Shown here: piece after piece, positions 8,277 through 34,555 of the stretch
Position numbering within the stretch: the stretch's first letter is position 1
Layout of the letters: each line of letters starts with the position of its first letter
Virus record (IMG/VR): IMGVR_UViG_3300042516_001481
Span: 1-34,748 of that record
Direction: 5' to 3' (one strand)
DNA from: a virus
DNA: 34,748 nt
Program-made: the position numbers and the translations under genes
The notes under the pieces: generated by a model
Told to the model about the DNA's origin: nothing
What the model saw: the letters and a program-made list of their open reading frames with translations, nothing else
Databases searched by the model: none

Positions 8277-10373
8277 GTGGCAATTCTCGAAATTAAAATA
8301 CAAGACCAATTACTTGACTTATACGATACGGAAAAAATCGTTCAGTCATTTTCTTTAATTAACATTGAAGATATTACAAAGCGAGAAAGCGAATACTCAA
8401 ACACATTTAAAGTTCCGAAGACAAATAAAAATTTACAAAATTTAGGTTATGCTGACTTTTTGAATTCAGATAGCTTAATCCCCTATTCTCGTTTAAATTG
8501 TGAAATTCTAATTGATGGCTTTATATTCAAGAAAGGATTTGTTTCAATTGAAAGTATTGAAGAAGATATTAATTTACAATTCTATACAGGGAATGCAGGT
8601 TTTTATGAAATAATTAAAACTAAGGAACTTTCTGATATTAATACAGATAATACACCAAGTTTAGAAACTACATGGAATTTATCAAATGTTATATCTAAGA
8701 GGTCTGCAAATGAAGGTGTATTTTTCCCCATGATAGATTATAACGGTATGCCTTCGGCAAGTACAACTGTTGATGTTCGTTTATTACTACCAGCTTTTTA
8801 CAGAAAAACTTTAATAGAAGCTATTGTTGAGGATGCTGGTTATACTTTAGTTAATAATATAGGTAATGGAATAATTGATGCTTATAATCATGATATAATA
8901 CCAACTTCGACAAATAAGCTTTATAATGATCAAGACACAATTGATTTAAACTTTTATAAAGGTGTTGATAATTACAGAAATAGAAATTTAAGTGTAGCAA
9001 CTAAAGTATTTACAGTACCAGTTACGAATTTTGATTTATCTTATACAGGTTATGATGTATTTAGATATGATTATTTAGAAGGTAACGAAAATACATTTAC
9101 AAATATTCCAACTGGAAGAAGTTATTTTACTTCAAATGTTGCGGGTGATTATAATGTAAATATTAATTTTAATATTAACGCTGTTAATACTTTTACGTGG
9201 ATTAATGAAGCAAATACTTTAGACATACCAAGATTCATCGCAAATACAACTATAAGATTTTATTTAAAAATAGGAAATAGAGAAGTTCAATTTCATCAAA
9301 TAAATAATAATTTTGAAAACCCAACGGCTATATTAGCTCCAAATATTAGTTCAACTTTTAATGATGTAATAAACTATTCAGGAAAAATAAATGTTAATCA
9401 AGGAGAACAAGTAAGCATAAGAATAAATGTTTCATGTGTATTTGCTGATGCTGGTGTAACTTATTCGCCAATTGGTAACGTGCATTCAAATGTTTTATTG
9501 CAATGTTCAAAAGGTGATACCTTTGAAATAAAATTAGCTGATAGTTTAGCTTTTAATGGCATTGTTAACCCAGCTGGATGTTTAAGAGGCATAAAACAAA
9601 GTGAATTTTTTAAAGATACTTTGATTAGATATTGTTTAATTCCAATTGTTGATGAAAATAATAAAAAAGTAACATTATTTGAATTTAATCAAATTAAAAA
9701 TAATATATCAAATGCTGTTGACTGGAGCGGTAAATTAGATGAAACAAAAGATAAAGAATTAACTTTTAAAATAGATAATTACGGGCAAAATAATTATTTT
9801 AATCATAAAGAAGATAAATTTGTTTTGCAATTACCTCAACAAAGTAATGGTATTATTACAATAGCAAATCAAAACTTAATATTAAATAAAGATTTATATG
9901 TTAGTCCTTTTGCAGCCAGCGAAACAGTAGAAAGGTTAAATGGAAAAAAGGTTATTTATATAGATTTACATGATGGCGTTTCTTTAACAACAACACAAAG
10001 TTTTAAAAATGATGTGCAAGCAAGAACTGGTTATACATCTAAGGAAAATTTTACAGTTACCTATACAGATGGAACTTCAAACACAATTGTTTCAACTGAT
10101 ATTCCTTTAACATGGTTTATTGATACTGCTAAAAATTATAATGCAGGTTTTCAATATTTATTAGATTATTCAATTGACTTAATAGCTATTTTACAAAATA
10201 TTAAAAAGATAAAATGTGAAATAAGGCTTAACATATTAGATATAATAAACCTGAATTATTTTTATCCTATTTACATAGATGAATTTAATTCTTATTTCTT
10301 TTTATCAAAGATTAGTCAATTCGACTATACTTCCAACGATAGCACAAGTGTAGAACTCATTAAATTAAATTAA
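8277..10373 (+). CDS. Large tail-tip/baseplate hub-like protein, 698 aa
   Basis: The GTG at 8277 is the start; an ATG at 8275 overlaps it in another frame and leads nowhere useful. The product opens with strands (MAILEIKIQDQLLDLYD) and a KRESEYSNTFKVPKTNKN segment near 34-51, a pattern I associate with the large tail protein next to the tape measure in Bacteroidota phages. The middle is N- and F-rich beta structure and the C-terminus has INLNYFYPIYIDEFNSYFFLSKI-like strands. A tail hub or tip role is inferred from position immediately upstream of the tape measure and from size. Confidence 0.6.
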   Translation: MAILEIKIQDQLLDLYDTEKIVQSFSLINIEDITKRESEYSNTFKVPKTNKNLQNLGYADFLNSDSLIPYSRLNCEILIDGFIFKKGFVSIESIEEDINLQFYTGNAGFYEIIKTKELSDINTDNTPSLETTWNLSNVISKRSANEGVFFPMIDYNGMPSASTTVDVRLLLPAFYRKTLIEAIVEDAGYTLVNNIGNGIIDAYNHDIIPTSTNKLYNDQDTIDLNFYKGVDNYRNRNLSVATKVFTVPVTNFDLSYTGYDVFRYDYLEGNENTFTNIPTGRSYFTSNVAGDYNVNINFNINAVNTFTWINEANTLDIPRFIANTTIRFYLKIGNREVQFHQINNNFENPTAILAPNISSTFNDVINYSGKINVNQGEQVSIRINVSCVFADAGVTYSPIGNVHSNVLLQCSKGDTFEIKLADSLAFNGIVNPAGCLRGIKQSEFFKDTLIRYCLIPIVDENNKKVTLFEFNQIKNNISNAVDWSGKLDETKDKELTFKIDNYGQNNYFNHKEDKFVLQLPQQSNGIITIANQNLILNKDLYVSPFAASETVERLNGKKVIYIDLHDGVSLTTTQSFKNDVQARTGYTSKENFTVTYTDGTSNTIVSTDIPLTWFIDTAKNYNAGFQYLLDYSIDLIAILQNIKKIKCEIRLNILDIINLNYFYPIYIDEFNSYFFLSKISQFDYTSNDSTSVELIKLN

Positions 10374-13251: not shown

Positions 13252-14454
13252 ATGAAAGTTGCAAAACTAAATATAGAAGGTTACATTGGAGGGAGCGATT
13301 TAGTTTCTCTTTTTGGTGGAGCTGAAACATTTAATTTAAGTCAATTAAAAAAGTTTTTAGATTCACTTGAAACAGATGTAACTGATATTCATGTTTCAAT
13401 TAATAGCGGTGGGGGTTCGGTAGTTGAGGGATGGGCTATTTATGACAAACTTAAAACAAGCGGGAAAAGAATTACAACAATAGGTGAAGGAATAGTTGGT
13501 TCAATAGCTACTGTTATTTACATGGCAGGGGATGTTAGAAAGCTACATGAAAATTCACGTTTCTTTATTCACAATCCTTACTGGCAACCTGATTCACCAA
13601 CTCCAATGGAAGCGGATGACTTAATTCAGTTAGGTGAAAACTTACAAGCTGAACAAAAAAAGATATTAGATTTCTATGTTAATCAAACAGGAAATTCAGT
13701 TGAGCAATTACAACCATTAATGCAAAAAGCTACCGACTTAACAAGCACACAAGCTATTGAATTGGGATTTGCTCATGAGATAATTACTTCAAGTGTAAAC
13801 TACACACCTTATAAATTAGTGGCTTACGTTGGGGAAAATAACCAAACAAATAAACAAACAATGAATAAACAAGAAAACAATCTATCGTGGATTAAAAGAG
13901 GGTTCACGAAGTTAGCAGCTATGATTAACGGTGTTACTTTAAATATGGAAATGCCTGTTAAAGATGCTGAAGGTAACGAAGTGCTTTTATATGTTGAAAG
14001 CGAAACTGAAGACTTAGTAGGCAAAGAAGCTTATTTAGTAGATGCTGAAGGCAATCAAACAGCTGCTGCAAATGGTGACTATACAGATGTTAATGGAAGA
14101 GTTATCAAAGTTGTAGATGGCTTAGTTAGTGAAGTTGTAGAGGCTGAAGCTAAAATGCATGAAGAAGAGAAGAAAAAACAAAATGAAATTTCAGTTGAAG
14201 ATTTAAACGCTAAAATCGAAGAGTTGACAAATATCAACAATTCTTTAAATGAGCAATTAAATTCAATTAAAGCTGAAAAAGAACAAACAGAAAACACATT
14301 TAACAATTTTAAAGCAGAGTTTGAAACACTTAAAAAAGTAGTAATTGGAAAGGGCAAAGAGTTCCAAGCAAGTGAACAAACTTTTGTAAAAGAAAATGCA
14401 AATGATTCAACTTTTGGCTCATGGGCGTTAAATAAAATCAAATCTAAAAACTAA
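13252..14454 (+). CDS. ClpP-like prohead protease fused to scaffold domain
   Basis: A protein of 400 residues. Residues 1-185 are a ClpP/S49-like serine protease: NSGGGSVVEGWAIYD at 51-65, nucleophile S84 in GIVGSIATVIYMAG, histidine H107 in RFFIHNP, and a likely third residue D162 in ATDLTSTQAIELGF. Residues 204-290 are a linker domain and about 290-365 are coiled coil, typical of a scaffold. The protease would cut the scaffold and capsid protein during prohead maturation. An internal ATG at 13861 may give a separate scaffold. It is followed directly by the major capsid gene. Confidence 0.85.
   Translation: MKVAKLNIEGYIGGSDLVSLFGGAETFNLSQLKKFLDSLETDVTDIHVSINSGGGSVVEGWAIYDKLKTSGKRITTIGEGIVGSIATVIYMAGDVRKLHENSRFFIHNPYWQPDSPTPMEADDLIQLGENLQAEQKKILDFYVNQTGNSVEQLQPLMQKATDLTSTQAIELGFAHEIITSSVNYTPYKLVAYVGENNQTNKQTMNKQENNLSWIKRGFTKLAAMINGVTLNMEMPVKDAEGNEVLLYVESETEDLVGKEAYLVDAEGNQTAAANGDYTDVNGRVIKVVDGLVSEVVEAEAKMHEEEKKKQNEISVEDLNAKIEELTNINNSLNEQLNSIKAEKEQTENTFNNFKAEFETLKKVVIGKGKEFQASEQTFVKENANDSTFGSWALNKIKSKN
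13861..14454 (+). CDS. Possible nested scaffold protein, internal start
   Basis: The ATG at 13861 is in frame with the protease gene (residue 204) and would give a 197-residue protein made of the linker and coiled-coil scaffold without the protease. The bases just before it (aaataaacaaaca) are the A-rich leader type seen at real starts in this genome and are unusual inside a coding region. The arrangement would match lambda C/Nu3. This is inference from the start context. Confidence 0.4.
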   Translation: MNKQENNLSWIKRGFTKLAAMINGVTLNMEMPVKDAEGNEVLLYVESETEDLVGKEAYLVDAEGNQTAAANGDYTDVNGRVIKVVDGLVSEVVEAEAKMHEEEKKKQNEISVEDLNAKIEELTNINNSLNEQLNSIKAEKEQTENTFNNFKAEFETLKKVVIGKGKEFQASEQTFVKENANDSTFGSWALNKIKSKN

Positions 14455-33486: not shown

Positions 33487-33748
33487 AGAAGCCAAAATTG
33501 AGTTTGAGTCTCACATGCTTATAGCATTATTTAAAGCTGCAGTTGAGCAATCAACACAATTAACTGGTAAATTTAAACATAAGATGAAAGCTGATTTTAA
33601 TCTATGGCAAAAACAAGGCTTTAAAATAGTTGAAGAACTTGAAAAAAGAAATATAACAGACGTTGAGTACTTAGATAAAATAGGTGATATTTACCATACC
33701 ATGAACTCAAATATGCGTGAAGAATTTTACAAAGGTTTGGAAAGTTAA
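33464..33748 (+). CDS. Hypothetical protein, 94 aa
   Basis: A helical charged protein (SLTIEEAKIEFESHMLIALFKAAVEQSTQLTGKFKHKMKADFN) with a central LWQKQGFKIVEELEKRNITDVEYLDKIGDIYHT. No family is recognised. It overlaps ninG by 23 nt and lies directly upstream of the promoter of the replication genes, which overlaps its last codons (33736-33766). It may contribute to replication. Confidence 0.6.
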   Translation: MEKSLTIEEAKIEFESHMLIALFKAAVEQSTQLTGKFKHKMKADFNLWQKQGFKIVEELEKRNITDVEYLDKIGDIYHTMNSNMREEFYKGLES

Positions 33749-33766
33749 ATAATTTTTGTATATTTG
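33736..33766 (+). promoter_or_regulatory. Best promoter in the genome, upstream of the replication initiator
   Basis: TTTG at 33736-33739, exactly 19 bases, TATATTTG at 33759-33766: a full match to the Bacteroidota -33/-7 consensus. It overlaps the end of the 33464 gene. Transcription should begin near 33772-33774, at or next to an ATG (33773), so the leader begins with the leader ORF described below. Confidence 0.75.
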
Positions 33767-33771
33767 TACCC

Positions 33772-33858
33772 GATGAGTAACGGCATCAGTAATAATAATA
33801 TTTTAATCCCATTGGTGAGTAGAGTCCGTTACCTCGAAAGCCGATGGGTTTTTTATTT
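33772..33858 (+). ncRNA. Structured leader RNA with terminator and interleaved arms
   Basis: Arm A (GAGTAACGG, 33775-33783) can pair with A' (CCGTTA-c-CTC, 33826-33835, one bulged C); arm B (CCCATTGG, 33808-33815) pairs with B' (CCGATGGG, 33841-33848, one G-U pair). The order A-B-A'-B' means either a pseudoknot or two competing folds. B-B' is followed by a run of six Ts, an A and four more Ts (33849-33859), so it can act as a terminator. It may be an attenuator for the replication genes or a small RNA made from the strong promoter. It does not match any RNA family I know. Confidence 0.55.
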
Positions 33859-33865
33859 TACATAA
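33773..33865 (+). CDS. 30-codon leader ORF (possible leader peptide)
   Basis: ATG at 33773 opens MSNGISNNNILIPLVSRV and runs to a TAA at 33863-33865, directly followed by the initiator ATG at 33866. The ATG lies at the predicted transcription start, so translation would be leaderless or nearly so. The ORF covers every arm of the structured leader, as expected for ribosome-controlled attenuation. It could also be chance within an RNA gene. Confidence 0.35.
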   Translation: MSNGISNNNILIPLVSRVRYLESRWVFYFT

Positions 33866-34555
33866 ATGGCAAAAAATTTTCCATATTTTAAATTTACTGC
33901 TACTGAATGGCTAACTGGAGATATAGTTTATGAATCTTTAGAACTTCAAGGTTTATTTATTAATGTATGTGCTTTATATTGGCAAAGAGATGGTAAATTA
34001 ACAATCGAAGATTTAATTAGAAGATATAAAAATGAATCATTAATAAAGGAGTTAATTGATAGATATATTTGGAATGAGCAAGGAAATATATTAATTAAAT
34101 TTTTAGATGAACAATTAATTGAAGCTAATCACATATCAAAAGTTAATTCAGAGAATGGCAAAAAAGGTGCAGAAGCTAAACGAAATAAAGCGAACGCTAA
34201 GCGACCGCTTAACGATAGTAAAGCGATTTTAAGCAAAGAAGAAAAAGAAGAAGAAATAAATAAGAATAAGAATAAGAATAAAATAAAAGAATTTGTTTTT
34301 CTTTCTGAATCTGAACTTAATAAATTAAATGAAGATTTTGCATCACATGAAGTAGAATGGATGCTTAATAAATTAAATGATTATAAAGCAAGTACAGGAA
34401 AGAAATACAAATCCGATTATGCTGCAATAAATATGTGGGTAAAAGATGCATTTAAAAAAGCAAAAGTTGATTTTGTAAAAGATAACAATACATTTAACAC
34501 TCGAATGCAAATAATACAAAACGAAATTAATAACACAGACTGGGAAAATCTATGA
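33866..34555 (+). CDS. Replication initiator (DUF4373/Lin1244-like N-terminal domain)
   Basis: A protein of 229 residues. The N-terminal domain (NFPYFKFTATEWLTGDIVYESLELQGLFINVCALYWQRDGKL, about 4-45) matches the Lin1244/Lin1753-type winged-helix domain of phage replication initiators. A lysine- and arginine-rich linker (about 100-145) with NKNKNKNK follows, then a C-terminal DnaD-like domain of about 75 residues. The linker DNA holds the candidate origin at 34187-34290. It probably binds there and brings in the host helicase with the help of the next gene product. The next gene starts by ATGA overlap. Confidence 0.75.
   Translation: MAKNFPYFKFTATEWLTGDIVYESLELQGLFINVCALYWQRDGKLTIEDLIRRYKNESLIKELIDRYIWNEQGNILIKFLDEQLIEANHISKVNSENGKKGAEAKRNKANAKRPLNDSKAILSKEEKEEEINKNKNKNKIKEFVFLSESELNKLNEDFASHEVEWMLNKLNDYKASTGKKYKSDYAAINMWVKDAFKKAKVDFVKDNNTFNTRMQIIQNEINNTDWENL
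34187..34290 (+). other. Candidate replication origin inside the initiator gene
   Basis: AAGCGA occurs at 34188-34193, 34199-34204 and 34221-34226, with starts 11 and 22 bases apart (one and two helical turns). The first copies also form inverted repeats: AGCG-AA-CGCT (34189-34198) and TAAGCG-AC-CGCTTA (34198-34211). They are locally GC-rich in an AT-rich genome and are followed at about 34232-34290 by an A-rich tract containing (TAAGAA) repeats. Position and order resemble lambda ori within gene O, where iterons lie in the linker region next to an AT-rich tract. Origin activity is inferred. Confidence 0.5.

Follow-up and report, generated by a model that had tools for sequence, protein, structure and literature searches.

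A kissing-loop leader family with a terminator-like hairpin upstream of replication and homing-endonuclease genes in Bacteroidota-type phages

In the intrinsic-terminator attenuators of bacteria and phages, a promoter, a folded leader, a terminator with a U-tract and a gene follow each other in that order. Kissing loops and loop-E motifs are known from riboswitch aptamers, e.g., that for lysine, and P4 immunity (P4 CI type) is an example of a phage leader RNA that acts in trans. In T4-like phages, expression of homing endonucleases is limited by RNA structure immediately upstream of their genes, mostly by hairpins that hide the ribosome-binding site and occur one per gene, and mobE and segF have terminators within coding regions (PMC2988022). 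The prophage RNA IsrK of Gifsy-1 occurs in two forms, as a small RNA ending at a terminator and as the leader of an mRNA made by read-through, and it regulates orf45/anrP/antQ by pairing in trans (PMC4825925). The put RNA of phage HK022 has two stem-loops directly after an early phage promoter and prevents termination by binding the polymerase (PMC9378689).

The locus described here lies in a virus record of 34,748 bases (IMG/VR IMGVR_UViG_3300042516_001481; the whole record was analysed and is called the window), whose two ends overlap such that the last ORF is repeated within the first. It has the general layout of an attenuator, in that a promoter, a terminator-like hairpin with its U-tract and a gene start follow each other in a set order. 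Unlike classical attenuators, however, it lacks both a leader peptide and a mutually exclusive antiterminator, and the terminator loop instead kisses the loop of a 5' hairpin. In contrast to the T4 hairpins, the stem does not lie over the start codon (in 41 of 50 copies, the ATG begins 4-13 nt past the first TTTT that follows the stem), and one and the same covarying family precedes many genes, replication initiators among them. The two-hairpin layout is shared with put, but the second hairpin here is the terminator itself; compared with IsrK, any trans target of the present leader is hypothetical. Similar to riboswitch aptamers such as that for lysine, it combines kissing hairpin loops with an AGUA/GAA-type internal loop, whereas its kissing sequence varies freely and the genes behind it are not metabolic ones. 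The AGUA/GAAA core is conserved in type 1, the family of the window, and other leader classes of the same layout are without the internal loop. The initial annotation of this locus had known of no such element in phages of this group, which held up: Rfam 15, searched at the gathering cut-off and at E up to 10, returned chance-level matches only (the best match of the leader being TEG147, E 0.35, at 18.3 bits against a gathering cut-off of 56.1), and literature searches, which covered subscription papers in part, retrieved no description.

The locus and its predicted fold

The leader is placed in the gap between an ORF ending at 33748 and one starting at 33866, and its RNA of about 85 nt begins within a few bases of the promoter. 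Its features, in window positions, are:

33736..33766, + strand: Bacteroidota-type promoter, read from the sequence (TTTG 33736-33739, 19-nt spacer, TATATTTG 33759-33766)
33772..33787, + strand: 5' hairpin P1, GATG-AGUAACGG-CAUC as RNA, with stem GATG/CATC and 8-nt loop AGTAACGG
33773..33865, + strand: 30-codon ORF (MSNGISNNNILIPLVSRVRYLESRWVFYFT, then stop), considered not a conserved gene
33777-33783, + strand: kissing segment A, GTAACGG (GUAACGG in RNA), in the P1 loop
33788..33807, + strand: A/T-rich unpaired linker, varying in length and sequence among relatives
33808..33848, + strand: terminator hairpin P2, as RNA CCCAUUGGU...GCCGAUGGG flanking the internal loop and inner stem
33808-33816/33840-33848, + strand: P2 outer stem, arms B-B', CCCATTGGT/GCCGATGGG
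33817-33821/33836-33839, + strand: P2 internal loop GAGTA/GAAA (GAGUA/GAAA in RNA)
33822-33824/33833-33835, + strand: P2 inner stem GAG/CTC, 3 bp
33825..33832, + strand: P2 apical loop TCCGTTAC (RNA UCCGUUAC)
33826-33832, + strand: kissing segment A', CCGTTAC (CCGUUAC in RNA), pairing with 33777-33783
33849..33854, + strand: U-tract (T6) of the predicted intrinsic terminator, flush with P2, with the ATG 11 nt on at 33866
33866..34555, + strand: candidate regulated gene, a 229-aa replication protein (replisome organizer-like), starting 11 nt past the U-tract

The promoter, the letters of the arms and their coordinates as initially annotated were correct on re-reading the sequence, as was the description of a structured leader with a terminator before a replication gene: P2 and six U residues precede a gene whose 229-aa product matched PHROG_13246, 'replisome organizer' (E 8e-16), and PHROG_29280 (E 5e-25). 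A Pfam search of the same protein gave nothing above the cut-off. A sigma-70 promoter scan is uninformative for this Bacteroidota-type promoter, and P2 escapes the terminator scan, whose loop limit it exceeds. Close DNA relatives of the window were sought in the phage collection and none were found. A prophage or host origin of the element was considered and rejected, as the search for initiator homologues in bacterial genomes came back empty and the family is nearly absent from bacteria.

Using ViennaRNA on the window sequence, P2 was calculated at -16.6 kcal/mol and the isolated kissing duplex at -8.2 kcal/mol, while plain folding of the leader gave z = -2.1 only, which is unconvincing by itself. 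The internal loop GAGUA/GAAA has the letters of what we take to be a bulged-G or loop-E motif. All four arms of the initial annotation (A-B-A'-B') are present and real, but the structure differs from the one drawn there. A lies in the loop of P1 and A' in that of P2, and the two form a 7-bp kiss that is compatible with the terminator, and the three GAG/CTC base pairs that had been counted into A-A' belong to the inner stem of P2. It had also been suggested that A-A' might compete with B-B'; instead, the complementarity ends exactly at the loop edges, and could be extended past the loop in four of 47 relatives on the 5' side and in none of the 47 on the 3' side. So sharp a limit speaks against A-A' competing with the terminator, and the predicted A-A' pairing is a kissing contact able to coexist with it. 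Another nascent antiterminator, formed by the GCATCAGT region with ATTGGTG, reaches -12.8 kcal/mol in the window alone and was rejected, this helix being paired in 58% of cells family-wide vs 52% in shuffles.

Covariation and distribution of the family

With the downstream protein as query, 51 related viral loci were collected, in whose leaders compensatory changes were already visible in both loops. A DNA pattern prescribing no more than the internal loop and inner stem (GAGTAGAG-N8-CTCGAAA) retrieved, among the matches listed, many more elements in viral contigs. The search for compensatory changes in arms A/A' and B/B' that had been proposed at the outset was then run on an alignment of 30 distinct elements (A2). 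Across the full structure of 23 pairs, 99.9% of cells are standard pairs, both sides have changed in 18 of the 23 pairs, and the covariation score is 0.695 vs 0.184 when shuffled; slid-alignment controls gave at most 0.086 for the full structure and at most 0.098 on any control. The covarying pairs comprise all four of the P1 stem, all nine of the P2 outer stem and five of the seven in the kissing helix, which bears out the earlier option of a pseudoknot for A-A' in the form of a loop-loop kiss. The three inner-stem pairs of P2 are all invariant in A2 (type 1), and in distant members this stem is replaced compensatorily (GGCU/AGCC in L321, GGAG/CUCC in L325, CAAUG/CAUUG in L324). RNAalifold recovers P1 and P2 unguided. 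Because U-G pairs, common at two P2 positions, would be C-A mismatches on the opposite strand, the + strand is the one that would act as RNA.

An unbiased loop test was made on 32 non-redundant hairpins, picked blind to kissing for their T-run and well-paired outer stem. For 30 of the 32 (among the matches listed), the 60 nt upstream contain an exact complement of the apical loop, 7-8 nt long; the chance rate in random windows of the same contigs is 0.44%. About 14 kissing alleles occur among 50 distinct elements. We consider the comparative evidence overwhelming, and a more-than-chance structure confirmed at the level of aligned sequences.

The position of the element between promoter and start codon is also maintained. 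A TAnnTTTG-like box ends 9-11 nt before kissing segment A in 42 of 50 distinct relatives, and at least six of the eight bases directly after the stem are T in 46 of the 50, with a clean U-tract absent in L092 and L103. An ORF on the same strand lies directly 3' of nearly every complete element. About half of these downstream ORFs are replication initiators or small genes preceding them (MAKNFPYF type, DUF6291, HTH type), and most of the remainder are free-standing homing endonucleases (NUMOD4-HNH, HNH, GIY-YIG), the gene classes being assigned by Pfam or by clear N-terminal similarity judged by eye. Copies before homing endonucleases sit at varied places, e.g., before a terminase-like gene in L112. 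In L002, L070, L073, L078, L110, L112 and others, we observed homing endonucleases travelling with their own promoter and leader at many insertion positions.

A covariance model built for the family (R1) and run on 50 viral records matched 43 of them, and eight of the matched records hold a second element, each with a different kissing allele. These second elements precede homing endonucleases, an initiator or a ParB-like gene, and overturn the suggestion from the pattern scan of one element per genome. In G001/G005, two HNH paralogues have the same P1 stem and the kissing sequences GTAACGG and GTGGATG. Contigs carrying the family reach 266 kb (L077). A pattern scan of 84,980 species genomes retrieved one true copy, on a contig of a Psychroflexus MAG, and a covariance-model scan of 299 genomes of that MAG's bacterial family under strict filters retrieved the same genome only; the family is thus nearly confined to viral contigs.

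Three further observations were made among these loci. In L013, L075, L161, L082, L066 and L067, a conserved stretch resembling TAGTTAT[TCA]GGTNATCTTAAAACC separates the terminator from the start of a small protein-coding gene (MERTKIIF type) located ahead of the initiator, and is possibly another control site. At L109:7039-7156, the terminator hairpin looks flipped relative to P1, the model matches both strands and the loops are no longer complementary, which would reflect either a hairpin inversion or an assembly artefact. A phage contig with two kissing-terminator leaders also carries a Pistol ribozyme (L131:3544-3617; Rfam RF02679, 52.7 bits).

Unrelated leaders with the same plan

Sequence-unrelated leaders built on the same plan precede the same operon, including in cultured Cellulophaga and Flavobacterium phages (phi19:1, vB_FspS_morran9-1 and Nekkels_1). 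In Cellulophaga baltica phage phi19:1, the promoter is at 10353 and the element measures about 100 nt; in Flavobacterium phage vB_FspS_morran9-1, the promoter is at 14178. In a promoter-anchored test that left out type 1 and demanded a match of at least 7 bases between the terminator loop and the first 45 nt, 17 such terminators were observed among metagenomic loci vs 1.4 expected, several of the 17 being mutually related, and four in cultured phages vs 0.6 expected. Kissing or pseudoknot terminators were found within 900 nt upstream at 25 of 34 homologous initiator loci, compared with 20 of 482 control windows. A second family on this plan, class III, was found by pattern and has a P1 of GAAG...CUUC and an inner stem of AGGU/CACCU. 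Its 28 elements have many covarying kissing alleles of 7-10 nt and precede replication initiators, DUF6291 and primase-like genes, as judged by eye (L327, L328, L330, L331, L345 and others). As unrelated sequences have reached the same plan, the kiss between 5' hairpin and terminator probably does something useful in itself.

Separately, we observed a conserved leader of about 150 nt (class II; L015:144, L019:522, L025:587, L031:2393, L061:2513 and 39 loci) with P1 AUCGG-AGUAACGAA-CCGAU, a covarying pseudoknot (CATCAAC/GTTGATG, CAATCAC/GTGATTG, GCTTAAC/GTTAAGC) and a branched terminator TTAGGGGTTTTTT followed by the ATG; no Rfam match was returned in the loci scanned. In vB_FspS_morran9-1, the hypothetical CDS gp42 was annotated over a kissing-terminator leader (L067:14157-14300) and is probably not a gene. 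In the window itself, on the minus strand at 28406-28325 between two + strand ORFs, a terminator hairpin (GAAGCCTTTCAGAAATGAGAGGCTTT) lies about 60 nt past a TATATTTG promoter, which may mark a short antisense transcript or small RNA.

A proposed attenuator and its alternatives

Judged by its sequence and layout, the stretch 33770-33854 is, with moderate probability, the cis-acting 5' leader of the replication operon and a kissing-clamped transcription attenuator, and the RNA family would probably be a built-in brake on replication and homing-endonuclease genes. A cis-acting element of this kind is consistent with the order promoter-P1-P2-U-tract-ATG and with the family's occurrence in leaders of specific genes only. 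The same leader on homing-endonuclease cassettes is expected for genes whose premature expression is costly, and since T4 homing endonucleases are held back by RNA structures and terminators (PMC2988022), a brake is plausible for both gene classes.

The course of events that we infer, including termination in vivo, the direction of the kissing effect, the role in timing and the trigger, is as follows. Transcription would start just before P1, which would fold first and be complete before the P2 loop appears. As the top of P2 emerges, its loop would kiss that of P1 and help the weak 3-bp inner stem and internal loop of P2 to fold, nucleating the terminator. The GAGUA/GAAA internal loop and the outer stem would then close on the U-tract, and the polymerase would mostly stop before the ATG, such that expression of the replication gene would depend on read-through. 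Most likely, the kiss clamps or nucleates the terminator to give a set-point or timed brake, which a phage or host factor could release; that it promotes rather than hinders termination we think somewhat the likelier direction. Against a cis brake, a simple brake needs no hypervariable kissing sequence.

That variability could be mere structural covariation, or it could point to a role in trans as in IsrK. In the latter case, the terminated RNA of about 85 nt would accumulate and its kissing loops would target further transcripts of the same allele, whether nascent or read-through, with feedback or superinfection exclusion as the result. The kissing sequence is indeed the variable part of a conserved element, genomes with two elements hold different alleles, and IsrK provides the precedent of a short RNA acting in trans on its own read-through mRNA (PMC4825925). 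However, A already finds its partner A' in cis, many alleles are one compensated step apart as neutral covariation would give, and different alleles in all eight two-element genomes would be expected about one time in three (an estimate from allele frequencies), making the orthogonality of co-resident alleles suggestive only. We regard a trans-acting leader as unlikely. It is in the form of such a terminated by-product that the small RNA alternative of the initial annotation survives; a free-standing small RNA is less likely because a gene follows nearly every complete copy at once.

Rather more speculatively, and with a slim probability, the leaders may form a convergent phage RNA class in which a variable loop-loop 'lock' between 5' hairpin and terminator gates replication and the lock sequence serves as an identity tag specific to the allele. 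A resident or co-infecting phage would supply a matching leader RNA that opens or closes the terminator, which would amount to RNA-based immunity or copy control among Bacteroidota phages; the same device would have been taken up by selfish endonucleases.

It is improbable that the element works without termination, as an mRNA 5' protector or translation-start element with the kiss shielding the 5' end and ribosomes landing on the U/A-rich stretch. The short distance from the first TTTT to the ATG would suit this reading, and the U-tract could in part be an A/U-rich translation start region; yet of 552 other ORF starts in these phages just 25 have T6 within 25 nt upstream, and T6 is flush with the stem in nearly all elements. 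Put-type antitermination, which works via the zinc-binding domain of the polymerase and in which the two-hairpin RNA would bind its own polymerase to pass this and later terminators, appears quite improbable, and less likely than structural covariation or an IsrK-like role in trans. The position of two hairpins directly after the promoter of an early or replication operon recalls put RNAs, which are about 70 nt long with two stem-loops just after PL (PMC9378689), but P2 itself ends in a U-tract, the elements also serve single homing-endonuclease genes, and the kissing contact is without a reported counterpart in put RNA.

Least of all do we favour the ribosome-mediated attenuator first proposed for the 30-codon ORF, which is very improbable given the lack of a conserved leader peptide and of a conserved mutually exclusive antiterminator helix. 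The ORF exists in the window, but is found only in the subgroup with a GATG-type P1, where P1 happens to contain GATG; it is frameshifted in L082, runs on in L125 and is missing from all other lineages. Within the GATG-type copies, the frame is open with the usual end in 19 of 21 and the linker is 30 or 33 nt long in 20 of 21, which may reflect weak selection on the frame but is explicable by slippage in an AAT repeat. The Ka/Ks-type check suggested for this ORF revealed no synonymous bias and no conservation of amino acids, as 118 of 118 pairwise codon differences in the structure-free linker are non-synonymous and none synonymous, where 12% synonymous would be expected. Since the ORF is not conserved, ribosome-mediated attenuation is unsupported.

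The initial observation is therefore confirmed with its mechanism corrected, and the finding is larger than first proposed, being a phage-associated family. Together, these leaders define an RNA family that is missing from Rfam. Its terminator incorporates a tertiary contact with strong covariation, and it stands where replication operons and homing-endonuclease genes begin in Bacteroidota-type phages. Where small ORFs have been annotated across leaders of this kind, as with gp42 of vB_FspS_morran9-1, they may be spurious. To our knowledge, replication timing in Bacteroidota phages is largely unknown, and the leader offers a concrete candidate switch for it, along with R1 as a search model.
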